Shown here: positions 42,453-53,784 of the stretch, piece by piece
How positions within the stretch are numbered: the stretch's first letter is position 1
Layout: every line of letters begins with the position of its first letter
From: an uncultured Alphaproteobacteria bacterium
GTDB lineage: Bacteria; Pseudomonadota; Alphaproteobacteria; SP197
DNA: 64,000 bases
NCBI GenBank assembly: GCA_958295695.1
Contig: OY282363.1
Coordinates: 2,980,225 to 3,044,224, forward strand
Direction: 5' to 3'
Position numbers and translations under genes: made by a program
Notes under the pieces: model-generated
Databases searched by the model: none
Told to the model about the DNA's origin: nothing
Seen by the model: only the letters and a program-made list of their open reading frames with translations

Positions 42453-43451
42453 TCAGGCGAACTCGTCGCCGACCGGGCGCGCGAGCAGGCGCGCGATGGC
42501 GTCATCGACCGGGAGCCTGCCCGCGAGCACGTCCGACACCGCCGACGAGATGGGCGTCTCGACGCCGAGACGTTCGGCGAGGCGGACGACGGCGGGCGCG
42601 GTGACGGCGCCCTCGACCACGCCGGCGCGGCCCGCCACCGGTTCGCCGGCGGCGCGGCCGGACCCGAGCCTCCGGCCGAAGGCGTGGTTGCGCGACCGTT
42701 CGCCCGTGCAGGTCAGCACCAGGTCGCCGAGGCCCGAGAGCCCCATGAGGGTCTCGCGCCGGGCGCCCAGCGCGCCGCCCAGCCGGGCCATCTCGGCGAA
42801 TCCGCGGCCGATCGCCGCGGCCCGCGCGTTGTCGCCGAGCCCGCGGCCGACGGCGATTCCCGAGGCGATCGCGATCACGTTCTTGACCGCGCCGCCGACC
42901 GCGACGCCGGTCGCGTCGGAACCGCGGTAGACGCGGAACATGGGGTCCGCCAGGCAGGCGACGACGCGGTCGAGCGTCTCGCCGTCGCCGGCCGCCGCGA
43001 CGGCCGTCGGCAGGCCGCGCGCGACCTCGTCCGCGAAGGAGGGGCCGGAGAGCACGGCGATCCGGCCGCGCCCGAGCGCCTCGCGCGCGACATCCGTCAT
43101 CAGCTTCCCGCTGCCGGCCTCGATGCCCTTGGCGCAGACGCATGCGGCGGCCTCGGACCGCAGATGCGGCGCGAGCGCGGCGCAGACGGCCCGCAGGTGC
43201 GCGGAGGGCGCGGCCAGGAGGACCGCGTCGCAGGGGGCCAGCCGCGCCATGTCCGTTGTCGCGCCGATCCCGGATTCGAGCGCGACGCCCGGCAGGAAGA
43301 CCGGGTTGGCGCGGCGGGCGCCGATCGCCTCGGCCGTCTCGGCCTCATGGGCCCAGATCGTGACCCGCGCGCCGGCGCGCCGGCCGGCGCAGGCCAGCGC
43401 CGTGCCCCAGGCGCCGGCGCCGACGACGCCGAGATGCATGGAAACGCCCAT
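42453..43451 (-). CDS. gpsA: Glycerol-3-phosphate dehydrogenase [NAD(P)+]
   Basis: GpsA makes sn-glycerol 3-phosphate from dihydroxyacetone phosphate for phospholipids. The 332-aa product has the Rossmann motif GVVGAGAWGTALA, VLSGPSFADEVARGLPTAV, the catalytic Lys in GGAVKNVIAIASGIAVGRGL, and LSGLGDLVLTCTGERSRN. In many alphaproteobacteria tsaD precedes gpsA and hemC is divergent from it; here neither is next to it. Confidence 0.95.
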   Translation of the reverse strand: MGVSMHLGVVGAGAWGTALACAGRRAGARVTIWAHEAETAEAIGARRANPVFLPGVALESGIGATTDMARLAPCDAVLLAAPSAHLRAVCAALAPHLRSEAAACVCAKGIEAGSGKLMTDVAREALGRGRIAVLSGPSFADEVARGLPTAVAAAGDGETLDRVVACLADPMFRVYRGSDATGVAVGGAVKNVIAIASGIAVGRGLGDNARAAAIGRGFAEMARLGGALGARRETLMGLSGLGDLVLTCTGERSRNHAFGRRLGSGRAAGEPVAGRAGVVEGAVTAPAVVRLAERLGVETPISSAVSDVLAGRLPVDDAIARLLARPVGDEFA

Positions 43452-43542
43452 GGCCTCCGCTTACAGGAGCGCCCCGGCCGATGCAAAGCCGGCGCTTTCC
43501 TCGCCGCTCCGGAACGTCATCCCGTCGGATTGGATCGGGGCC

Positions 43543-43694
43543 GTCCCTCGATACGGTCCCTTCGGGACCCGCTCGGGATGAGGGATGAGACGAGGGAAGA
43601 ATCGCGACCTCCCCCGTCCCGAGGCGCGGTCCGCGGAGGGCGCTTGCCGCGAGCGACAAGCAAGCCATGGCGTTTCCGTCGAAGACGGAAACGC
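43543..43694. repeat. Dispersed intergenic repeat, copy 5, with an 11-bp hairpin
   Basis: Starts gtccctcgatacggtccctt, continues gggacccgctcgggatgagg, and ends with gacaagcaagccatggcg and a perfect hairpin GCGTTTCCGTC-GAA-GACGGAAACGC (43670-43694). The caagcaagccatggcg part recurs inverted in copy 9 near 60.2 kb. It fills the space between gpsA and hemD. Confidence 0.7.
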
Positions 43695-43738
43695 TGTAAC
43701 TGCCGTAAAGCGCGCCCGGCGCCCGGCGGAAATCTCCC

Positions 43739-44458
43739 ATGAACCTGCTGCTCACCCGTCCGCTCGAAGACTCCCGACGGTTCGCCCGCCGTCTCTCCGC
43801 CTGCGGCGTGGCGACGGAGATCGCGCCGCTTCTCGCCATTCGACGGACGGGTCGGGGGGAGGTGGCGGCCGGGCGGTTCCAGGCGGTGCTGCTGACCAGC
43901 GCCAACGGCGCCCGGGCCTTCGCCGAGGCGACGGAGGAGCGCGCTTGCCCGGTCCTCGCCGTCGGCGACGCCACCGCCCGCGCCGCGCGCGGCGCGGGAT
44001 TCGCCGATGTCGCGTCGGCCTCCGGCGATGTCGGCGCGCTCGCGGCGCTGGCCCGCGCGAGCCTGAAGCCGGAGGGAGGACCGCTGCTGCATGTGGCCGG
44101 AAGCGTCGTGGCGGGCGACCTCGGCCGCCTGCTCGGCGAGGCCGGCTTCACGGTCGAGCGTCTGGCCGCCTACCGCGCCGAAGCCGCGACCGCCCTGCCG
44201 GCCGTGGCCGCCGACGGGCTTCGCGCCGGGCGGTTCGACGGCGCGGTCTTTTTCTCGCCTCGCACCGCGGCGACCTTTGCTAGACTGTCCGCCGGGACGG
44301 GCCTCGCATCCTCGACCGCCGGACTCGAGGCCTTCTGTCTGAGCCAGCCGGTCGCGGACGCCCTGGCCGCGGCCGATTGGCGGGCGCGCCGCGTCCCGCC
44401 CCGGCCCGAGAGCGAGGCGCTGGCGCGGCTCATCTGCGATTCGGCGGAGCGGCCATGA
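43739..44458 (+). CDS. hemD: Uroporphyrinogen-III synthase
   Basis: HemD closes and inverts ring D of hydroxymethylbilane to give uroporphyrinogen III. The 239-aa protein is of normal length and has weakly conserved but recognisable features: LLTRPLEDSRRFARRLSACG, AVLLTSANGARAFAEA, VLAVGDATARAARGAGF, ERLAAYRAEA and FFSPRTAATFARL. It overlaps the mitofilin-like gene by 4 nt (ATGA). The partner gene hemC, usually just upstream in this class, is missing here. Confidence 0.85.
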   Translation: MNLLLTRPLEDSRRFARRLSACGVATEIAPLLAIRRTGRGEVAAGRFQAVLLTSANGARAFAEATEERACPVLAVGDATARAARGAGFADVASASGDVGALAALARASLKPEGGPLLHVAGSVVAGDLGRLLGEAGFTVERLAAYRAEAATALPAVAADGLRAGRFDGAVFFSPRTAATFARLSAGTGLASSTAGLEAFCLSQPVADALAAADWRARRVPPRPESEALARLICDSAERP

Positions 44459-45579
44459 GCACTGACACGACCTCCTCGCGGCCGGACGGCCTCCCGTCCG
44501 AACCGGGTCCGGCGGACGCCGCCGAGCCGTCGACCGGCAAGCGGAAGCACGCCCTCGCGGCGGCCGTCCGGTCCGGCTGGATCGCCGCCGCCGCTCTCGT
44601 GCTGGCGGTCGCCGCGGGCGGCGCGGCCGGCTTCCTCGCCGTGTCGTTCACCGGCGACGCCCGCTCCCGGACCGCCGCCCTGGAGAACAGGGTCGCCGAC
44701 CTCGACGCCCGCGTCGCCGCGTTCGCCGAAGAAGTCGGCGCGGCCGGCGCGCTGGCCGGCCCCGTCGACGATCTCGAACGCCGCATCGGCGGGGCCGAGG
44801 ACATGCTGGCCGCGCTCGAGGCGCGGACGGGTTCCGCCGTCGAGTCCGCCGTGGCCGGGATCGAGGACGAAGTCGCGGAGCTTCGCGGGCTGGTCGACGG
44901 CCTCCAACAGTCGTCGGCGGACGGCGCCGCGGCCGATCCGGCGATCGTCGCGCGCCTGTCGGACTTGGACCGGGCGATCGGGGACCGGGACGACCGGATC
45001 GAGGCCCTGTCCGCCGCCCTGGCCGCGGTCGAGGCGCGCGCGGCCGATCCGCTGGCCGGCTTCGTGCTGGCCGTGGGCCAGCTTCGCGCCGTCGCGGACT
45101 CCGGCGCGCCCTTCGCGGAACCGCTGGCGGTCGCGCGCCGCCTGGCGCCCGACGACGACGTCCTCGCCGGCGCTTTCGGCGTCCTGGAACGGCACGCCGA
45201 GGCCGGGGTCGCCACCGCCGGCGCCCTCGAGGCGGAGATGGCGGCGGCCTTCGCGGACGCCGTCGCGGCCGAAGCGGTCGACAAGGCCGACGGCTGGTTC
45301 GACAAGACGCTGGCCCGGCTCGAAGGTCTGGTCAGCGTGCGACGGACGGACGGGGCGCCGGAAGGCGTCGCGGCGCCGGCCGTCACCGGACGCGCCCGCG
45401 CCCATGTCGAGGCCGGGGACGTCGCCGCCGCCCTGGCCGAGCTCGAGGCGCTCGCGGCGCCGGCCGCGGCGGAGGTCGCGGGCTGGCGCGCGAGGGCGGA
45501 GGCCCATGCCGCCGTGCGCTCGGCCCTGCGCGCGCTCGCGGCGCGCGCCGCGACGCTGGTGGGCGGCGCCGGCGGCTGA
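44455..45579 (+). CDS. Mitofilin (Mic60)-like inner-membrane protein
   Basis: A 374-aa protein with a charged cytoplasmic N-terminus, one transmembrane segment (about 37-62, WIAAAALVLAVAAGGAAGFL), a long periplasmic coiled coil (about 70-180) and a C-terminal helical region with EPLAVARRLAPDDD resembling the mitofilin signature. The hemD-mitofilin-HemY order is characteristic of alphaproteobacteria. Homologues are linked to membrane curvature and crista-like folds; that function is inferred. Confidence 0.75.
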   Translation: MSTDTTSSRPDGLPSEPGPADAAEPSTGKRKHALAAAVRSGWIAAAALVLAVAAGGAAGFLAVSFTGDARSRTAALENRVADLDARVAAFAEEVGAAGALAGPVDDLERRIGGAEDMLAALEARTGSAVESAVAGIEDEVAELRGLVDGLQQSSADGAAADPAIVARLSDLDRAIGDRDDRIEALSAALAAVEARAADPLAGFVLAVGQLRAVADSGAPFAEPLAVARRLAPDDDVLAGAFGVLERHAEAGVATAGALEAEMAAAFADAVAAEAVDKADGWFDKTLARLEGLVSVRRTDGAPEGVAAPAVTGRARAHVEAGDVAAALAELEALAAPAAAEVAGWRARAEAHAAVRSALRALAARAATLVGGAGG

Positions 45580-45582
45580 AGG

Positions 45583-46926
45583 ATGCGCGCGCTCCTGTTC
45601 TACATCGCGCTGGTCGCCGCGGCCGTCCTCGCCGTCCTGTGGCTGGCCGAAGCCGGCGGCGAGGTCACGATGGTCTGGGGCGTCTACGAGGTCGCCACGA
45701 CCGTGCCCGTGCTCGCGTTCGGCGTTCTCGCCGTCGCGCTCGCCGCGGTGTTTCTCACGGGCGTCGCCGGCTGGCTTTGGCGCGGACCGCGTCGCGTGCG
45801 GTCGGCCCTCGGCCGGCGTCGGCGCGCGAGGGGCTACGAGGCGCTGACCAGGGGGCTCGTCGCCGTCGCGGCCGGCGACGCCTCGGAAGCCAGACGCCAC
45901 GCCCGCAAGGCCGACGGCCTTCTGGGGCATCCGCCCCTCACCCTGCTGCTGGCCGCCCAGGCCGCGCAGCTCGACGGCGACGACGGGGCCGCGGACGACC
46001 GGTTCCGCGCGATGCTGGAACGGCCCGAGACGGAGTTTCTCGGGCTGCGCGGGCTGATGTCCGCCGCCTTGCGCCGGGACGACCGGGACGCGGCGCGGGA
46101 CTTCGCGACGCGCGCCCATGCGCTGCGGCCCGACGCGCGTTGGGCCGCCGAGGCCGTCTTCGAGCTTCAGACCCGCGACGGCGACTGGGGCGCGGCGCAA
46201 CGCACCCTGGAGACGGCGCTGGACCGCAAGGCGCTGCCGGCCCGGACGGGCCGCCGGCGCCGCGCCGCGCTGCTGCTCGAGGAGGGCCGCCTCGCGCTCG
46301 GGAGCCTCGACCGCGCCCGGGCCCTCGGTCGCGCCAGGGAGGCCCATGCGGAGGCGCCCGACCTCGCGCCCGCGACGGCGCTCTACGCGCGCCTCCTGAT
46401 CGACGACCAGAAGCTGCGCGCGGCCGCCAGGGCGATCGAGCGGGGCTGGGCCGAGGCCGCCCACCCCGATCTCGCGGCGCTCTACGCCGAGGCCGGACGC
46501 GACAGCGGCGTCGCCCGCTACAAGCGCGTCGGCAGGCTGATCGGCATCGCGCCGGAGGCGCGCGAATCGCATCTCGCCGCGGCGCGCGCGGCGCTCGACG
46601 CCAGGCTGAGCGGCGAGGCCCGCCGCCATCTCCGCGACCTTGGCGACGAGCCGGCCACGAAGAGGGTGGCGCGCCTGTGGGTCGAGCTCGAGGAGATGGA
46701 GGGCGACGCCGGGGAGGCGTCGCGCTGGCGCGACATCGCGGCCGACGCTGGCCCGGAGGCGTCGTGGCGGTGCGCGGGCTGCGGCCACGCCGGTCCCGAA
46801 TGGCGCGCGGTCTGCGCCGGCTGCGGCGCCTTCGACGCCGCGACATGGCGCGGGCCGGATCGCCACGGACCGGCCGAACGCGGCGACGTCCCGGCCCCGG
46901 CCGGCCCGGCGGCCCAGGGGGTCTAG
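45583..46926 (+). CDS. HemY-like TPR membrane protein
   Basis: A 447-aa protein with two N-terminal membrane segments (about 3-22 and 38-64) around VTMVWGVYEVATTVPVL, then TPR-like helical repeats rich in Ala/Arg. A C-terminal zinc-ribbon-like CAGCGHAGPEWRAVCAGCG is followed by AFDAATW. The name HemY comes from its place in hem operons; this is not the protoporphyrinogen oxidase called HemY in Bacillus. It starts 3 nt after the mitofilin-like gene. Confidence 0.82.
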   Translation: MRALLFYIALVAAAVLAVLWLAEAGGEVTMVWGVYEVATTVPVLAFGVLAVALAAVFLTGVAGWLWRGPRRVRSALGRRRRARGYEALTRGLVAVAAGDASEARRHARKADGLLGHPPLTLLLAAQAAQLDGDDGAADDRFRAMLERPETEFLGLRGLMSAALRRDDRDAARDFATRAHALRPDARWAAEAVFELQTRDGDWGAAQRTLETALDRKALPARTGRRRRAALLLEEGRLALGSLDRARALGRAREAHAEAPDLAPATALYARLLIDDQKLRAAARAIERGWAEAAHPDLAALYAEAGRDSGVARYKRVGRLIGIAPEARESHLAAARAALDARLSGEARRHLRDLGDEPATKRVARLWVELEEMEGDAGEASRWRDIAADAGPEASWRCAGCGHAGPEWRAVCAGCGAFDAATWRGPDRHGPAERGDVPAPAGPAAQGV

Positions 46927-46950
46927 CGCGGCATTCGCGCACGCTGGCGG

Positions 46951-47571
46951 TCAGGGGGATGTCCGGACCGCGAGGTAGCGGAACAGCCGGCGCTTCCCCT
47001 CTCCCAAGTCGGCATAGTTCCGCCAGCGAAGGCGGTAGGAACCCGCGAGACGGATCGGGTCCTTCCGGCCCTTGGTCGTCCCGGGGCCGGCCCGTTCGGA
47101 CCAGGCCATGTTTCCGGCGATCGCCCGGCCGTCGTGGAGGCGGAAGGCCGCATCGTTGGTGTCGTGACGCTGGGGGCGTTTCCAGTAGCCGGAATCGTTC
47201 GTCAACAGCACCGCGATACCGGCCCGGACGCACGGGAGCGCGCCGCACCGTTCCAGCCGTTGGACATCCTTCAGGAAATCGTATCGGCCTTGATCCCGCG
47301 CCTCCTGGTCGGTCAGCGCGAAGGATTCGTCGCCATGTTCGAACGCGAGCTTTCGGGTGAGGTACTTCAACTCCAGGGCGACGCCGATGTCGGGAAGCCA
47401 GAGGTCCAGGTACATCCGTTCGTCCGGAAAGGGTTTGTGCTCCAGACGGATCTTGCAATCGGGCGCGGCTTCGCGGATGCGCCACGCGAGGGCGTGCTGG
47501 AAGTCCGCTTCGGAATGGAACGCCGGCCGTCCGCGGGCAAGCTCTTTCATGAGGCGGTCGATATCGAGCAT
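46951..47571 (-). CDS. PD-(D/E)XK nuclease-like protein of unknown role
   Basis: A 206-aa soluble protein from ATG 47571. The segment MYLDLWLPDIGVALELKYLT has the D-x(n)-ExK spacing of PD-(D/E)XK nucleases, preceded by a helical part (FHSEADFQHALAWRIREAAP). DQGRYDFLKDVQRLE with Arg/Asp and a C-terminal LRWRNYADLGEGKRRLFRYL follow. It resembles uncharacterised proteins that sit near tRNA genes or islands. It is convergent with the HemY-like gene (24-nt gap) and faces away from tRNA-Thr. Alternatives: nuclease-fold regulator or solitary restriction-like enzyme. Confidence 0.65.
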   Translation of the reverse strand: MLDIDRLMKELARGRPAFHSEADFQHALAWRIREAAPDCKIRLEHKPFPDERMYLDLWLPDIGVALELKYLTRKLAFEHGDESFALTDQEARDQGRYDFLKDVQRLERCGALPCVRAGIAVLLTNDSGYWKRPQRHDTNDAAFRLHDGRAIAGNMAWSERAGPGTTKGRKDPIRLAGSYRLRWRNYADLGEGKRRLFRYLAVRTSP

Positions 47572-47948
47572 GACCGTCGCTCTCCCCGGCTGCCGCGCGA
47601 TCGTACCGCGATCGAACCGGCGGCGGTATATGGCATTGGGTCGTGTCTCGGTTTGAAGTCCGGCGCTTCCCGCAAGCGGCGTCCCCTTCGGCGGGCTCGG
47701 GGCCGTCCCTCGACACGGCGCCCACGAGAGCGGGCGACCCGACCGCGATCTCGCGTTGCCCGGCCGCATCGCGTTCGAGATCGCGCCGCTCGCCGCCGAG
47801 GGCGCGCGCGGCGGGTCCCGCCCGCGAGGACTGGGCCGATCCCGGCGGCGGAGTCCGGCCGGCTCCGGCCCGCGATTCGTTTGACCGGCCGGTGGCGCGC
47901 CGATAGGGTCCGGCGCTCCCGCGTCCGAGGCGCGGGAGGCGATGGCGG
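47572..47948. other. Intergenic stretch before tRNA-Thr
   Basis: 377 nt of GC-rich sequence with no convincing gene. It holds a short repeat of the dispersed family (ccccttcggcgggctcgggg then ccctcgacacgg at about 47688-47720) and the tRNA promoter. Confidence 0.5.
47881..47909 (+). promoter_or_regulatory. Promoter of tRNA-Thr
   Basis: TTGACC (47881-47886) and TAGGGT (47904-47909) are 17 bp apart, about 40 nt upstream of the mature tRNA 5' end. Confidence 0.45.
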
Positions 47949-48020
47949 GCCGAAGTAGCTCAGCGGCAGAGCAACTGATTCGTAATCAGTAGGCCGGGAG
48001 TTCGAATCTCCCCTTCGGCA
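47949..48020 (+). tRNA. tRNA-Thr (CGT)
   Basis: A full 72-nt cloverleaf: acceptor GCCGAAG/CTTCGGC with A73, D-stem GCTC/GAGC, anticodon stem ACTGA/TCAGT with loop TTCGTAA (anticodon CGT, reading ACG), T-arm GGGAG-TTCGAAT-CTCCC. The 3' CCA is not encoded (CCG follows). U36-A37 make it a t6A substrate. Confidence 0.95.
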
Positions 48021-48098
48021 CCGCGCCCTTCCCGGCGAGACCGGTCCGGTCGCGATCGGCGCTTGACGGTCCGCGCCCTTTGTCCCCATGGTCCCGCC

Positions 48099-48701
48099 AT
48101 GGCCGCTTTCGACACCCTGTCCGCCTCGCGCGACCTCGAAGACGCCGGCATGGAGCGCAGGCAGGCGGAAGCCGTCGCCCACGCCGTCGCGTCCGCCGGC
48201 GCCGCCGGGCGCGACGATCTGGCGACCAAGGCCGACCTGGAGCAATTGAGGACGGCGACCAAGGCCGATCTCGATAAGTTGGAAACGGCGACCAAGGCCG
48301 ACCTGGAGCAATTGGGGGCGGCGACCAAGGCCGACCTGGAGCAATTGGGGGCGGCGACCAAGGCCGACCTGGCTGACCTGAAGGCGGAGACCAAGGCCGA
48401 CCTGGCTGACCTGAAGGCGGAGACCAAGGCCGACCTGGCTGACCTGAAGGCGGAGACCAAGGCCGACCTGGCTGACCTGAAGGCGGAGACCAAGACCGGT
48501 CTGGAGCAATTGAGAGCGGAAACCAGGGCCGGTCTGGCGGACCTGAAGGCGACGACCAAGGCCGGTCTGGAGCAATTGAGGACGGCGACCGAGGCCGACC
48601 TGAAAGCCGGTCTGGCGGCGCTGGAAGCCCGCATGACGTGGCGTCTCGTGCTTCTGGCCGGCGTCATCGTCGCGGCCGTCAAGCTCATTCCCGGCCCGTA
48701 G
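48099..48701 (+). CDS. Repetitive coiled-coil protein with C-terminal membrane anchor (DUF1640/CCDC90-like)
   Basis: A 200-aa protein: N-terminal helix (AAFDTLSASRDLEDAGMERR with QAEAVAHAVA), then eleven 11-residue units of the type ATKADLEQLRT / ETKADLADLKA (about residues 42-162), and a C-terminal transmembrane segment (about 179-198, WRLVLLAGVIVAAVKLIPG). The layout matches small coiled-coil membrane proteins related to the CCDC90/MCUR1 family. The 11-residue period forms a hendecad coiled coil. Function unknown; lies just after tRNA-Thr. Confidence 0.75.
   Translation: MAAFDTLSASRDLEDAGMERRQAEAVAHAVASAGAAGRDDLATKADLEQLRTATKADLDKLETATKADLEQLGAATKADLEQLGAATKADLADLKAETKADLADLKAETKADLADLKAETKADLADLKAETKTGLEQLRAETRAGLADLKATTKAGLEQLRTATEADLKAGLAALEARMTWRLVLLAGVIVAAVKLIPGP
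48222..48584 (+). repeat. In-frame 33-bp tandem repeat array
   Basis: Eleven 33-bp units in frame. Four central units (about 48363-48494) are identical (gccgacctggctgacctgaa ggcggagaccaag), two before them are also identical to each other, and the outer ones diverge. Being in multiples of three bases, gain or loss of units changes coil length but not frame. Confidence 0.9.
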
Positions 48702-48763
48702 GCCCCGCCCCGCGGTATCGCCGACGCTCGAAACCGCCCGTGCGCGCGTTTCCGACCCCCGAA

Positions 48764-48798
48764 GAAAAAAGGCCCGCCGGGATCCCCCGGCGGGCCTT
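48764..48798 (-). terminator. Rho-independent terminator of the lipoprotein gene
   Basis: On the minus strand a long GC stem (AAGGCCCGCCGGG facing CCCGGCGGGCCTT) is followed by TTTTTTC, 28 nt beyond the lipoprotein stop. The plus strand lacks a T-run after the stem, so it is weaker for the coiled-coil gene. Confidence 0.85.
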
Positions 48799-48825
48799 GC
48801 CGCGCGCGTCCGCGCGCGTCGGGGA

Positions 48826-50658
48826 CTACGGCGCCGGCGGCGGGTCGCTCACGGCGCCGAAGCTGCCGAGGAGGGTGCCCGCGCTCGTCGCAGGAGTACC
48901 CACGGCCGCCACCGGCAGCCGCCAGTAGCCGGCGGCCTCGAGCTCGCCGAGGGTCTTGGGGCCGTAGAAGGCGCCCCCATAGGCGCCGTCGGCGAAGTTG
49001 TGGGTGCGTGCGCCCGGGCCCATCGGACCGCCGGGGCCGTCAGGGTCGTGCGCGGAGTGGGCCGCCGCGTAGGCGACGCCGCTGAAGGAGCCGTCGGCCC
49101 CGACGTCGGCCGATTCGAGAATCACCGCGTTTCCGGGGCGTGGGTCGCCGGCGACCGGGTAGTCCGTCGCATCGGCATTCAGGAGAATGCGGTCGTAGAC
49201 GTCGTTCCCCCATACGCCGTTGTGCAGGAACTCGAAGTCGCGCATGGCCCCGGAAACCGTGCCGTGTCCGCCGCCGCCCGCGTTGAAGGTGGCGGTCAGC
49301 TCGACATCGCCCCGCAGCCGGACGATCCGCGAGATCGCGCCACCGTGGGGAGACTGGAGGAGCCAGCCCGTGGTCTTGCCGTTGAACGTGGCCACGATAC
49401 GGTTGTCGGCCGTGCCCCAGTCCGCCGGCCTGTCGCCGTCCGCGTCGCTGAAGGCGTCGTAGCCGAAGTGGAACGCCTGCAAGCGGCCGTAGCGGACCTG
49501 CGTGGTCGAGTAGTCCAGGAAGTTGAACAGGCCGTAGGACGCGTATTGGAGGTAGCGGTGCTCGTCGTCGCTCTCGTCCGCCGTGCCCTTGTCGTCCACG
49601 CCGGCGTAGTTCGAGAGCCAGAGGTTGTAGACGCCCAGCTCGTCGGCGGGCCGTCCGCGCTGGATGCGCAATGCACGCCGGAACTCCAGCGGCTTCCAGT
49701 CGGCTCTCTCCGGGTCTGCGGCAAGCGTGGTGGCGAGGTCGGTGACGATGGGCGTTCTTTCGACCCTGTATCTGCCGTCCTTGTCCTCGTAGGGGCCGTC
49801 CTCATCGGGCACCCGGAACAGCGTGTTGCCCGTGGCCTCACCATTGTCCGTAAATCTGGCCCACCCCGACGGAAGGCTGGTGTAGGGGGTGCGCGTCTCC
49901 ACGGTCGGGGTGGCGGGGTTCACCGAAACCCGCATCTTGAAGTGCCAGGCGGCTTCGCCGTCCGGGTCCGCCACCGGAGTCCCGAAGGTGGCGGTCACGT
50001 CGCTTGTCGTCGGGTCGTCGCACTTCGCGTCGTCCACGTTGGCGCAGGCGCCGTTGCCGGGCTGGTTCGTGAAGGCGCCGGGGCCGAGCGCGATAAGTCT
50101 CTCCATGTCGTAGAAGATGACGCCGTCGCCGCCCATCTTGAGGGTGACGCCGCCGCCGTCCGCCTTCATCCGGATCGAGCTCTCGTACGTCGCGTCGTAG
50201 TTCTTCCAGTTGCCGACGCCGGCGCCGCTGCCCATGACCGCCGGGTTGATGGTGCCGTCATTGGAGCCGTCCGGCTGCTGTCCCAGCTGATCGCCGCGTA
50301 CGACGATCCCGCGCATCTGGAACTCGTCCGTCGCGACCTCCCCGCCCCCGGTCCCCGGGAACAGCCTGTTACCGGCCGCGTGAGGGACGGCCTCGTCCTT
50401 GATGGCGAGCTTGTCGGGATTGGCGTCGGCGGAGTCGGTCATGGTGCGGGGCGTCCACATGACACTAGCCGGGTCCGCCATGCCCGCGGGGAAGTCGATT
50501 CTCGTTCCCCGCAGCGGCGTGAGCCTGTCGGTCAGCGAAAGAGACGGCTCCGGGTCCGGGGCTGGCGGCGGATCGCGATACCTCGTCGTGCTCGACGAGC
50601 ACGCCGTAAAGATCAGCGCGGCGGCGCACATTAGCGCCGCGGGCTTGAGCGGAATCAT
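48826..50658 (-). CDS. Outer-membrane-type lipoprotein, TbpB-like beta-barrel
   Basis: A 610-aa exported protein. The N-terminus is a lipoprotein signal with lipobox FTAC (Cys about 20) followed by [19 protein letters not shown], a flexible linker. The body is Gly/Asp/Asn/Thr-rich beta structure. Near the C-terminus [32 protein letters not shown] and [10 protein letters not shown] resemble the barrel ending (G-FYGP-A-E-GG-F) of TbpB-like surface lipoproteins. It could capture a host or environmental ligand; ligand unknown. A 12-base C tract lies about 100 nt upstream on its strand. Confidence 0.7.
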
Positions 50659-50757
50659 GTCGAGGCTCCCGTTGTTGAGATCGTCGCCAAACAGAGCGGC
50701 CCCCCGCGACGGTCGCTTCTGGAACCGTCGGTGGGGCCGGCGCGGAGCGGCTAACAC

Positions 50758-50775
50758 GGGGGGGGGGGGTGACAA
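50758..50775 (-). promoter_or_regulatory. Homopolymer tract next to a -35-like element upstream of the lipoprotein gene
   Basis: On the minus strand TTGTCA (50770-50775) is followed directly by twelve C (50758-50769), then GTGTTAGCC, a poor -10-like stretch. The start codon is 100 nt further on. If this is the promoter, tract length would set the -35/-10 spacing, as in phase-variable promoters. The true promoter is not proven. Confidence 0.4.
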
Positions 50776-50847
50776 GCCAAAATGGCGCGGGCCGGCCGGA
50801 AACCGGAAACGGGCGACGGTCTGGATGAGCGCGCGAACCCTCTCAAC

Positions 50848-50945
50848 CCTCATCCCCGGCAGGCCCGAAGGGGCCCTGTCGAGGGACGGGGCCGGGCCCG
50901 CCGAAGGCGGCGCCCCTTCGACGGGCGCCCCCGCTCGCCGGTGGA
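50848..50945. repeat. Dispersed intergenic repeat, copy 7
   Basis: Contains accctcatccccggcaggcc, gaaggggccctgtcgaggga and cggcgccccttcgacgggcg; related to the other copies through the cctcatcc and gtcgaggga modules (a short sixth copy is near 47.7 kb). Confidence 0.55.
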
Positions 50946-51010
50946 CACCGCGCGGCAATCCGGCTAGGGCGGCGCGTCCGCTCTCCATCCAGGCGCCCGC
51001 CCGGCCCGCG

Positions 51011-51922
51011 ATGCCCGACACGCCCCACCCGACCCATCTCGACCGGCTCGAGGCGGAGTCGATCCACATCATGCGCGAGGCGGCGGCCGAGTGCCGCCGC
51101 CCGGCGATGCTCTACTCGGTGGGCAAGGATTCGTCGGTCATGCTGCATCTGGCGAGGAAGGCCTTCCACCCGTCGCCGCCGCCGTTCCCGCTGGTGCACA
51201 TCGACACGACCTGGAAGTTCCCGGAGATGTACGCCTTCCGCGACCGGACGGCCGCGGAGACCGGCATGGAGCTCATCGTCCACGTCAACCGGGACGGTCT
51301 CGCGCGGGAGATCGGGCCCTTCACCCACGGCCCGGCGCTCCATACCGACGTGATGAAGACCCAGGCGCTCAGGCAGGCGCTCGACCTCCACGGCTTCGAC
51401 GCGGCCTTCGGCGGCGCGCGCCGCGACGAGGAGGCGTCGCGCGCCAAGGAGCGCGTCTTCTCCTTCCGCACCGCCGCCCACGGATGGGACCCCAGGAACC
51501 AGCGCCCCGAGCTCTGGCGCGTCTACAACACGCGGGTGAACGAGGGCGAGTCGATCCGCGTCTTCCCGCTCTCGAACTGGACCGAACTCGACGTCTGGCA
51601 GTACATCCAGCTTGAGGACATCCCGGTCGCGCCGCTCTACTTCGCGGCCAGGCGGCCGGTCGTGGAGCGCGGCGGCGCGCTCATCGTGAGGGCCGACGAC
51701 CGCATGCCGCTGCGCGATGGCGAGGAGCCGACCATGCGCATGGTGCGCTTCCGCACGCTGGGGTGCTATCCGCTCACCGGCGCGGTGGAATCGGAGGCCG
51801 ACACCCTGCCCGCGATCGTCCGGGAGACGCTTCTGGCCAGGACCTCGGAGCGCCGGGGCCGCGCGATCGACCGCGGCGAGGCCGGCGCCATGGAGAGAAA
51901 GAAGCGGGAGGGCTACTTCTGA
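51011..51922 (+). CDS. cysD: Sulfate adenylyltransferase subunit 2
   Basis: CysD, with the GTPase CysN, makes adenosine 5'-phosphosulfate from sulfate and ATP. The 303-aa product has the PP-loop [54 protein letters not shown], and [20 protein letters not shown], with the C-terminal [14 protein letters not shown] 51011 is the family-consistent start. Its stop overlaps the next start (TGATG). Confidence 0.96.
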
Positions 51923-53784
51923 TGGCCCGCGGGCCCGGCCCGGAGGGGCAGGACCTCCTGCGCTTCATCACCTGCGGCGGCGTGGACGACGGCAAGTCGA
52001 CCCTGATCGGCCGCCTGCTGTTCGATTCCCGGCAGATCTTCGAGGACCAGCTCGCCGCCGTCGACGCCGACAGCAAGACGGCCGGCTCCCGGGACGGCGC
52101 GAGGGACCTCGCGCTCCTCGTGGACGGTCTCCAGGCCGAGCGCGAGCAGGGCATCACGATCGACGTCGCCTACCGTTTCTTCTCGACCGGCGGGCGCAGG
52201 TTCATCGTCGCAGACACGCCCGGCCACGAGCAGTACACCCGCAACATGGCGACCGGCGCCTCGACCGCCGACCTCGCGGTCATCCTGGTCGACGCCAGGA
52301 AGGGCGTCCTGACCCAGACCCGCCGCCACAGTTTCATCGCCGCCCTGCTGGGCGTCCGCCGCATGGTGCTGGCGGTCAACAAGATGGACCTCGCCGGCTG
52401 GGACGAGACGGTTTTCAAGACCGCCGCCGCCGCCTATCGCGACTTCGCCGGCGGCCTCGGCGTCGACGACGTGACCTGCATCCCGGTCTCGGCGCTCACC
52501 GGCGCCAACGTCTTCGAGGCGGGCGCGGAGACGCCGTGGTACCGGGGCCCGACGCTGATCGACGCGCTCGAGACGGCCGATGTCTCCACCGACATCGCGC
52601 GACGCCCGTTCCGCATGCCGGTGCAGTGGGTCAACCGGCCCGGTCCCGATTTCCGCGGCTACTCGGGCGCCATCGCCACGGGCGTCCTGCGTCCCGGCGA
52701 CGCGGTCGTGGCCTGCCCGTCGGGACGGCGGACGACGGTCGCGCGCATCGTCACGTTCGACGGCGACCTCCCCGCCGCCGTCGCGGGCCAGTCGGTGACG
52801 GTCGTCCTGGCCGACGAGATCGACATCGCCCGCGGCGACATCCTGGCCGACGCCCGGAACCCGCCCGACAGCACCGACCAGTTCGCCGGCCATCTGCTGT
52901 GGATGCACGACGAGCCGCTGCTGCCCGAACGCCAGTACCTTCTCAAGATCGGCGCCGCGCGGGCGACCGCCCAGGTCACGGACCTGCGCTACAAGATCAA
53001 CGTCAACACCATGGAGCATATCGCCAGCCGGACGCTGGAGCTCAACGAGGTCGCCTGCTGCAACTTCGCGCTCGACCGGCCGATCGCCTTCGACCCTTAC
53101 GCCGAGGCGCGCGAGACCGGCGGCTTCATCCTGATCGACCGCTTCACCAACGCCACGGTCGGGGCCGGGACGATCGACTTCGGCCTGCGCCGGGCCGCCA
53201 ACCTCGCCCGGCACGAGATGGCGCTGGACAAGGCGCTGCGCGCCCGCCAGAAGAGCCAGCGGCCCTGCGTCCTCTGGTTCACCGGGCTGTCGGGCTCGGG
53301 CAAGTCGGCCACGGCCAACCTGGTCGAGGGGAAGCTCGCCGCGCTGGGCCGCCACAGCTACCTGCTGGACGGCGACAACGTGCGCCACGGCCTCAACCGC
53401 GACCTCGGCTTCAAGGATGTCGACCGGGTCGAGAACATCCGCCGCGTGGCCGAGGTCTCCAGGCTCTTCGTCGACGCCGGCCTGATCGTGCTGGCGTCCT
53501 TCATCTCGCCCTTCCGCGACGAACGGCGCATGGCGCGCGAGCTGGTCGAGGACGGCGAGTTCATCGAGATCTTCGTCGATGCGCCGCTCGAGGTCTGCGA
53601 GCGGCGCGATCCCAAGGGCCTCTACAGGAAGGCGCGGGCCGGCGAGATCGAGAACTTTACCGGCATCGATTCCGACTACGAACCGCCCGAGAACGCCGAG
53701 ATCGTGCTGAAGACCGCCGAGCACTCCGCCGAGGCGCTGGCCGACCGGGTGATCGCCCACCTGAAGGACGGCGGATACCTGTGA
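51922..53784 (+). CDS. cysNC: Bifunctional sulfate adenylyltransferase subunit 1 / adenylylsulfate kinase
   Basis: A 620-aa CysN-CysC fusion. The N-terminal ~430 residues are an EF-Tu-like GTPase (CGGVDDGKSTLIGRLLFDSR, ADTPGHEQYTRNMATGAS, VNKMD), followed by barrel domains. From about 450 on comes APS kinase (VLWFTGLSGSGKSATANLVE, LLDGDNVRHGLNRDLGF, NIRRVAEVSRLFVDAGLIVL). The product is PAPS, as with rhizobial NodQ. No cysH or cysG is nearby. It overlaps the next gene by 4 nt. Confidence 0.96.
   Translation: MARGPGPEGQDLLRFITCGGVDDGKSTLIGRLLFDSRQIFEDQLAAVDADSKTAGSRDGARDLALLVDGLQAEREQGITIDVAYRFFSTGGRRFIVADTPGHEQYTRNMATGASTADLAVILVDARKGVLTQTRRHSFIAALLGVRRMVLAVNKMDLAGWDETVFKTAAAAYRDFAGGLGVDDVTCIPVSALTGANVFEAGAETPWYRGPTLIDALETADVSTDIARRPFRMPVQWVNRPGPDFRGYSGAIATGVLRPGDAVVACPSGRRTTVARIVTFDGDLPAAVAGQSVTVVLADEIDIARGDILADARNPPDSTDQFAGHLLWMHDEPLLPERQYLLKIGAARATAQVTDLRYKINVNTMEHIASRTLELNEVACCNFALDRPIAFDPYAEARETGGFILIDRFTNATVGAGTIDFGLRRAANLARHEMALDKALRARQKSQRPCVLWFTGLSGSGKSATANLVEGKLAALGRHSYLLDGDNVRHGLNRDLGFKDVDRVENIRRVAEVSRLFVDAGLIVLASFISPFRDERRMARELVEDGEFIEIFVDAPLEVCERRDPKGLYRKARAGEIENFTGIDSDYEPPENAEIVLKTAEHSAEALADRVIAHLKDGGYL

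Follow-up and report, generated by a model that had tools for sequence, protein, structure and literature searches.

What kind of protein is encoded by an array of near-identical 33-bp units that lies directly behind a tRNA gene, how freely does the number of units change, and does the position beside the tRNA mean anything? These questions are raised by an ORF of an uncultured alphaproteobacterium, found in a window of 64,000 nucleotides (the whole stretch of DNA that was analyzed). An earlier note on this DNA had described the ORF as a membrane-anchored coiled coil of recently expanded units, and had mentioned the tRNA in passing. We think it fairly probable that the protein is a membrane rod of the CCDC90-like type, that its stalk is a loosely selected spacer, and that it belongs to a multi-copy accessory family that has spread into the 3' flanks of tRNA genes. 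What is new here is the lineage-specific and length-variable expansion of a CCDC90-like family into these flanks; the anatomy of the protein itself is known.

A bacterial member of the CCDC90-like family

The ORF runs from an ATG to its stop (Table 1), and the ORF list gives the same frame from an upstream TTG. The encoded protein consists of a helical-hairpin head, an ATKAD neck, eleven units of 11 residues (33 bp each, of the type xTKADLxxLxx) and a C-terminal hydrophobic end. Tandem Repeats Finder delimits the array at 48221-48602, with a period of 33, 11.6 copies, 83% matches and a score of 358, while the next-best array anywhere else in the window scores 69; the near-identity of the units, as first remarked, is thereby borne out. 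The four identical central units that had been counted are also real: the longest run in which base i equals base i+33 is 106, which amounts to 139 nt, or 4.2 units, of perfect periodicity. Read in the register that starts at ATK, units 6, 7 and 8 of the eleven do not differ from one another, nor does unit 3 from unit 4. The hydropathy of the stalk has its best period at 3.675 residues, near 11/3, which indicates that the stalk is made of hendecads.

Table 1. The ORF, its parts and its immediate flanks, in window coordinates
Feature	Coordinates	Strand	Basis
tRNA-Thr(cgt), 76 nt upstream of the ORF	47949..48022	+	ARAGORN; Rfam tRNA match
47-nt upstream stretch common to the copy after tRNA-Cys (from 48060 also the Ser copy)	48052..48098	+	blastn, alignment; promoter-like by eye only
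ORF of the CCDC90-like (DUF1640) protein, 200 aa	48099..48701	+	PF07798, 49.8 bits (cut-off 33.5)
Head, residues 1-37, helical hairpin	48099..48209	+	alignment of 38 homologues, AlphaFold2
Neck motif LATKAD, residues 41-46, matching the published beta-layer consensus	48219..48236	+	consensus comparison, homologue alignment
Stalk, eleven 33-bp hendecad units, residues 42-162	48222..48584	+	Tandem Repeats Finder, unit alignment, hydropathy period
Perfectly 33-periodic tract, 139 nt, 4.2 units	48356..48494	+	base i versus base i+33
Partial last unit plus four extra residues, residues 163-181	48585..48641	+	unit alignment
Hydrophobic C-terminal end, probable membrane anchor, residues 182-200	48642..48698	+	sequence; model helix to residue 195
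Terminator-like hairpin downstream of the ORF	48771..48796	.	by eye

The PF07798 match (CCDC90-like, DUF1640) extends over residues 4-189; the Apolipoprotein and FBF1 models of Pfam match the protein below their cut-offs, and no NCBIfam model exceeds its cut-off. Among PDB sequences the best match is 6h9l, an uncharacterised protein with 11-residue units of the ATKEDIEALRK type (E 1.5e-7, over the stalk), and a search with the profile of 38 homologues gave 6h9m, human CCDC90B, at 2.8e-7, 6h9l at 4.7e-7 and 5apz at E 0.44. The scores of repetitive coiled coils are partly compositional, and the 6h9l match lies over the stalk; yet head and anchor align in family members. Across the 38 homologues A23 is invariant and D5, T6, L13 and G17 are nearly invariant in the helical head with its conserved FDT... 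motif, and A42, T43 and D46 are invariant in the neck, with K44 and A45 nearly so. Judged by its sequence, the ORF belongs, as a bacterial representative, to the CCDC90-like (DUF1640, MCUR1/CCDC90B) family, whose architecture is already known and which the earlier note had not recognised. With the other members, which include 6h9l, 6h9m, MCUR1 and yeast Put6/Put7, it has in common the head, the ATK neck motif, the coiled-coil stalk and the C-terminal hydrophobic segment, and with 6h9l also the kind of hendecad unit. Its genome differs from what is known of the family in the long array of near-identical units, in the strong length variation on similar heads, and in the number of head-bearing places, 12 in one genome with half of them beside tRNA genes. 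Eukaryotic members have roles in calcium uniporter assembly or proline use; for the bacterial ones we are aware of no function that has been established. Prokaryotic relatives of MCUR1 and CCDC90B were reportedly the subject of a 2019 paper in Structure.

AlphaFold2 (38 sequences, mean pLDDT 91.4) predicts helices at residues 6-15 and 20-37, a break at the ATK neck and one helix from residue 44 to 195, which takes in the hydrophobic segment that is plain on reading the sequence. DUF1640 proteins are described as membrane proteins of prokaryotes and mitochondria whose stalk starts with a beta-layer motif, [aliphatic]-A-T-K-[polar]-[DE] (PMC4786415). The neck fits this consensus by sequence, as in the alpha/beta coiled coils exemplified by Tcar0761 (PDB 5apz); the model has no strand there. 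Beta-layers in every unit, as in a true alpha/beta coiled coil, were considered and are not supported, since the published beta-layers come in nonads or hexads (PMC4786415), with which a spacing of 11 does not agree, and since the stalk is modelled as a continuous helix. Foldseek found no match to the model at E <= 0.001. In VIA-align, where a Z under 8 may reflect only a common arrangement, the first six rows are pyrroline-5-carboxylate reductases, aligned on the head (Z up to 6.3, 41 residues, rmsd 2.3), and human CCDC90B reaches Z 5.3 over 90 residues but with an rmsd of 18.4. The part of the enzyme to which the head (48099-48224, residues 1-42) aligns is its helical hairpin, perhaps just a common arrangement; the yeast family members Put6/Put7 are described as acting in proline use (PMC7519068).

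The protein would thus consist of a small helical head, a short neck, a slightly right-handed hendecad coiled-coil stalk and a C-terminal membrane anchor. Its most likely place would be the inner membrane, head and stalk lying in the cytoplasm, because no signal peptide was seen and the single hydrophobic segment is C-terminal. The stalk of CCDC90-like relatives is trimeric, and by analogy the protein is probably a trimer. A very different placement is conceivable, namely a surface-displayed stalk of variable length of the kind formed by Periscope Proteins, in which nearly identical tandem repeats likewise lengthen a rod (PMC9704523). We regard it as highly improbable: Periscope Proteins are described as lying on the cell surface and varying at the population level, whereas the present protein, with no signal peptide by eye and its anchor at the C-terminus, is probably on the cytoplasmic side, is built of helical hendecads, and varies, as far as seen, between paralogues and species. 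The yeast members of the family, described as matrix-facing proteins of the inner mitochondrial membrane (PMC7519068), also speak against surface display.

Stalk length among paralogues and homologues

Each 33-bp unit would add three helical turns, or about 1.6 nm at 0.15 nm per residue, and leave the hydrophobic seam unshifted, so that slippage or unequal crossing-over could change the length of the rod without breaking the frame or the fold. Copies within the same genome permit a direct comparison. Twelve places bear a head, several of them decayed, and other searches yielded similar sets. Eight of the twelve encode intact proteins, of which seven exceed the PF07798 cut-off and one, the short C1:1433532, does not, and the remaining four are head-only, stopped or running into unrelated sequence.

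The most informative copy is C1:2067076. Its DNA is 95% identical to that of the focal ORF over the head (41 codons) and 98.8% over the anchor (27 codons); the 64 codons that specify the same residue contain three silent differences, and the head has four residue changes. The arrays between these near-identical ends differ in unit number and order: eleven units in the focal ORF, nine in the paralogue plus a tenth that joins the anchor. A third copy, C1:2008773, has five units and a different anchor, and a fourth, C1:457876, combines a homologous head with a 14-residue repeat of period 3.505, that is, with heptads. After the nine-unit paralogue lies a stretch that resembles, by eye, a second and decayed head (L009:3602-3948).

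Outside this genome the closest relative found, 76% identical to the focal protein, is a protein of 76 residues from a member of the genus (L124, which is also encoded, as L087, on the named MAG contig JAJEBJ010000248.1). Its head and anchor are similar and it has no extra unit; its span from neck to anchor is shorter than that of C1:2067076 by exactly 99 residues (9 x 11), and shorter than that of the focal protein by 125. More widely, the length from neck to end ranges from 34 to 150 residues (median 68) in 39 of the 44 named homologues, and from 34 to 119 residues at nine loci of viral contigs, which encode six distinct proteins. From this comparison 11 of 64 loci were omitted: they had a stop, were atypical, lacked a clear start or had been read on the wrong strand. 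There is overlap between the named and unnamed sets, L216 and L085 being the same protein, as are L087 and L124. In the 33-row list obtained with a motif filter, a 453-aa row of L246 and the apparently frame-shifted L244 were read as non-family stalks; L019 is not a family member, and L018 and L020 are heads only.

The identical units had been taken as a sign of recent expansion, and a recent change of the array is indeed supported by the comparison with C1:2067076. Repeat number is not constant among relatives, with 11, 9 and 5 units in close paralogues and none in the homologue of the sister species. As to role, the earlier note had offered a length-variable spacer or a molecular ruler. The ruler was rejected, since a ruler would be expected to have a constant length wherever head and anchor are alike, and length is not kept between close homologues; a length that is free to vary supports the other half of the proposal. 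On these comparisons the stalk is better described as an expandable spacer than as a fixed ruler, and we suggest that the rod is a loosely selected spacer which would set the distance of the conserved head from the membrane. One genome thus offers a natural length series of 5, 9 and 11 units on similar heads, to which the sister species adds a form with none. Two of these proteins have nearly the same anchor, and the effect of stalk length in the MCUR1/CCDC90 family becomes directly testable. Elsewhere in this genome, four tandem and very similar genes for N-anchored coiled coils of 82-111 aa appear by eye to differ mainly in stalk length (L065:81-1388, C1:1181480-1182787).

Copies downstream of tRNA genes

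That the ORF follows a tRNA gene had been noted correctly, the gene being tRNA-Thr(cgt) on the same strand. This remark proved to be more important than was then stated, as six of the 12 head places lie downstream of a tRNA gene and co-oriented with it, at distances of 76, 94, 108, 108, 152 and 338 nt. The six tRNAs are all different (Thr-cgt, Cys-gca, Lys-ttt, Leu-taa, Gly-ccc and Ser-tga), the Lys copy being the one at 338 nt, with a small gene in between. Four of these six places exceed the Pfam cut-off and two are decayed: the Leu site runs into unrelated sequence and the Ser site has a stop in the head. ARAGORN found no tRNA near the other paralogues that were fetched. The tRNA set of this genome comprises 45 genes over the Rfam cut-off and 46 by ARAGORN, the extra one being Ser-act; in the 900 nt after each of the 46, tblastn (E 0.01) revealed no co-oriented head beyond the six, and two weak matches on the opposite strand, after Arg-ccg and Ser-gct. 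An encoded CCA is absent from three of the six tRNA genes that have a family copy behind them and from three of the 39 others (Fisher P 0.024).

Placement of six of 12 copies in this way has a probability of about 1e-13 if positions are random, and of 6e-9 to 1.5e-8 if each tRNA precedes one of 2800-3300 genes; restricted to proteins over the Pfam cut-off, four of seven lie downstream of a tRNA (P 1e-6 to 2e-6). We propose that the position immediately behind a tRNA gene either received the six copies or has retained them, and that they may be expressed there from the tRNA transcript or from the shared upstream stretch. By blastn, the Thr and Cys copies are homologous over no more than the ORF and about 47 nt upstream of it, which also speaks against mobility. 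The promoter reading of this stretch stays an impression, as the promoter-like spacing differs, by eye, between copies; a pattern with a fixed spacer matched three times in the window against 1.32 expected, and not at the focal site.

Are these slots occupied in related genomes? At the Thr, Cys and Ser sites that were compared with their sister loci, no copy was present. No head was found within about 1.5 kb downstream of the tRNA at six sister tRNA-Thr loci; in four of them the upstream neighbour is conserved and a different ORF follows the tRNA at 24-25 nt, and at L153 a cysD-like gene begins about 920 nt after the tRNA, versus about 3010 here. Nor was a head present at eight sister tRNA-Cys loci, three of which (L184-L186) hold just 144-326 nt after the tRNA. 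At three others (L181-L183) the homology of the next gene begins about 40-80 nt after the tRNA, versus about 1000 nt here, so that on alignment these loci show a nearly closed site. Seven of 17 sister tRNA-Ser loci, one per genome, were analyzed (G001 and G002 not being among them), and none has a head; their orthology is doubtful, and upstream sequence in common with the Ser site here is found at four of the seven, one of which (L195) has only about 360 nt downstream. Short contigs and the doubtful Ser orthologues weaken the comparison with sister loci; the three nearly closed Cys sites and the Thr loci continue to hold.

In the class as a whole the family is patchy: 22 of 385 genomes have a match at 1e-6, the highest number of rows being that of this genome (12, some of them pieces of one gene), and G355 has 11. 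At 58 class loci in other genomes (28 + 30), three copies are co-oriented with and downstream of a tRNA: L231, 286 nt after tRNA-Leu, and, both in the copy-rich G355, L247, about 280 nt after tRNA-Arg, and L243, about 510 nt after tRNA-Ser. This compares with about 0.19 expected (P ~0.001). We consider these loci as suggestive only of a tRNA association outside this genome.

The same counts bear on a plainer explanation, that the protein is an ordinary DUF1640 member whose copies have been kept after tRNAs since transcribed intergenic places tolerate insertions and give expression, with no special link to tRNAs. Many tRNAs here do precede ordinary co-oriented genes. Moreover, a co-oriented upstream tRNA was found at none of 13 genus loci, some ending at contig edges, and at none of 44 named loci, several cut by contig ends (one of the latter, L084, has a doubtful tRNA on the opposite strand); and the 58 class loci have three tRNAs nearby in all, roughly the number that we estimate from genome density. 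However, all three of these tRNAs are upstream and co-oriented (P 0.016), against 0.19 loci expected in that position, and even if just an assumed 10% intergenic fraction were open to insertion, six of 12 would be reached with a probability of about 1e-7. We therefore hold this explanation to be unlikely, if still worth serious consideration. Titles and the opening lines of abstracts, in a non-exhaustive survey, contain no report of DUF1640 genes multiplied beside tRNAs.

Possible traces of mobility

A small gene that recurs in tRNA 3' flanks, where neither an integrase nor an att site was recognised, raises the question of how such genes move and are expressed. In the 900 nt examined at each of the six sites, no exact duplication of the tRNA 3' end of at least 10 nt was found, except for one 11-mer at the Ser site, and blastn-short over about 2-3 kb gave at best 11 exact positions or 12 of 13. 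A model with an att site and an integrase was rejected, as no duplication of a tRNA end was found. By eye, no integrase was recognised among the ORFs of five of the paralogue loci (L009, L010, L013, L015 and L016) or of window positions 43000-53500.

These results weigh against the idea that the copies are relics of phages or integrative elements, in which case the gene would be a moron left beside tRNAs by integrated elements, and might act in superinfection exclusion at the inner membrane. Other traces are consistent with it. Homologues occur at nine IMG/VR loci (six distinct proteins), and two PHROGs without assigned function match the focal protein, phrog_9415 over residues 3-196; but none of 50,697 named phage records matches the family, PADLOC yields weak matches only (best E 0.0011), and the single plasmid match, from Methylocapsa polymorpha, is partial. 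At two of six viral loci inspected (L157 and L160), the family gene lies on the strand opposite to neighbours that match head-tail adaptor, minor tail or tape-measure PHROGs, at L160 just after a small co-oriented ORF. In two members of the genus (G008 and G004), copies are found near ORFs that look transposase-like, resolvase-like or toxin-antitoxin-like by eye, and a Liberibacter DUF1640 gene is described as part of a phage remnant flanked by tRNA-Ser. The neighbourhoods of the copies here are nevertheless ordinary, and on balance we judge a phage or element origin of this kind improbable.

A more elaborate possibility, to which we assign a small chance, combines several of these elements: a non-autonomous cassette of tRNA flanks, derived from phage accessory genes and accompanied at one tRNA-Lys by a second, N-anchored coiled-coil gene, would supply rods of adjustable length and different reach on the cytoplasmic side, which would protect the inner membrane, for instance from incoming phage DNA. 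The accumulation of accessory copies of a membrane spacer in tRNA flanks is the reading that we retain.

Several minor observations concern the surroundings of these copies. Both tRNA-Lys genes are followed by a gene for a protein of 57-60 aa that has a hydrophobic segment at its N-terminus and a short coiled coil (L010:3271-3453, minus strand; C1:1246933-1247103, plus strand). Neither of these proteins has a Pfam match, and the 57-aa one has no PHROG match. After tRNA-Lys(ttt) this gene overlaps the CCDC90-like gene by 4 nt, and after tRNA-Lys(ctt) the ORF next to it looks degenerate. Beyond the focal ORF, a convergent ORF (window 48826-50550, minus strand) starts like a lipoprotein (LIFTACSSS); neither Pfam nor NCBIfam gave it a match up to E 1. 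Upstream of the tRNA, an ORF at window positions 46951-47640 (minus strand) gives a sub-threshold match to a DpnII/MboI-type nuclease (13.2 bits, cut-off 27). Finally, next to the paralogue that follows tRNA-Gly(ccc) is a CRISPR-like array with ORFs that resemble Cas1 and Cas2 by eye (L015:10-3076).
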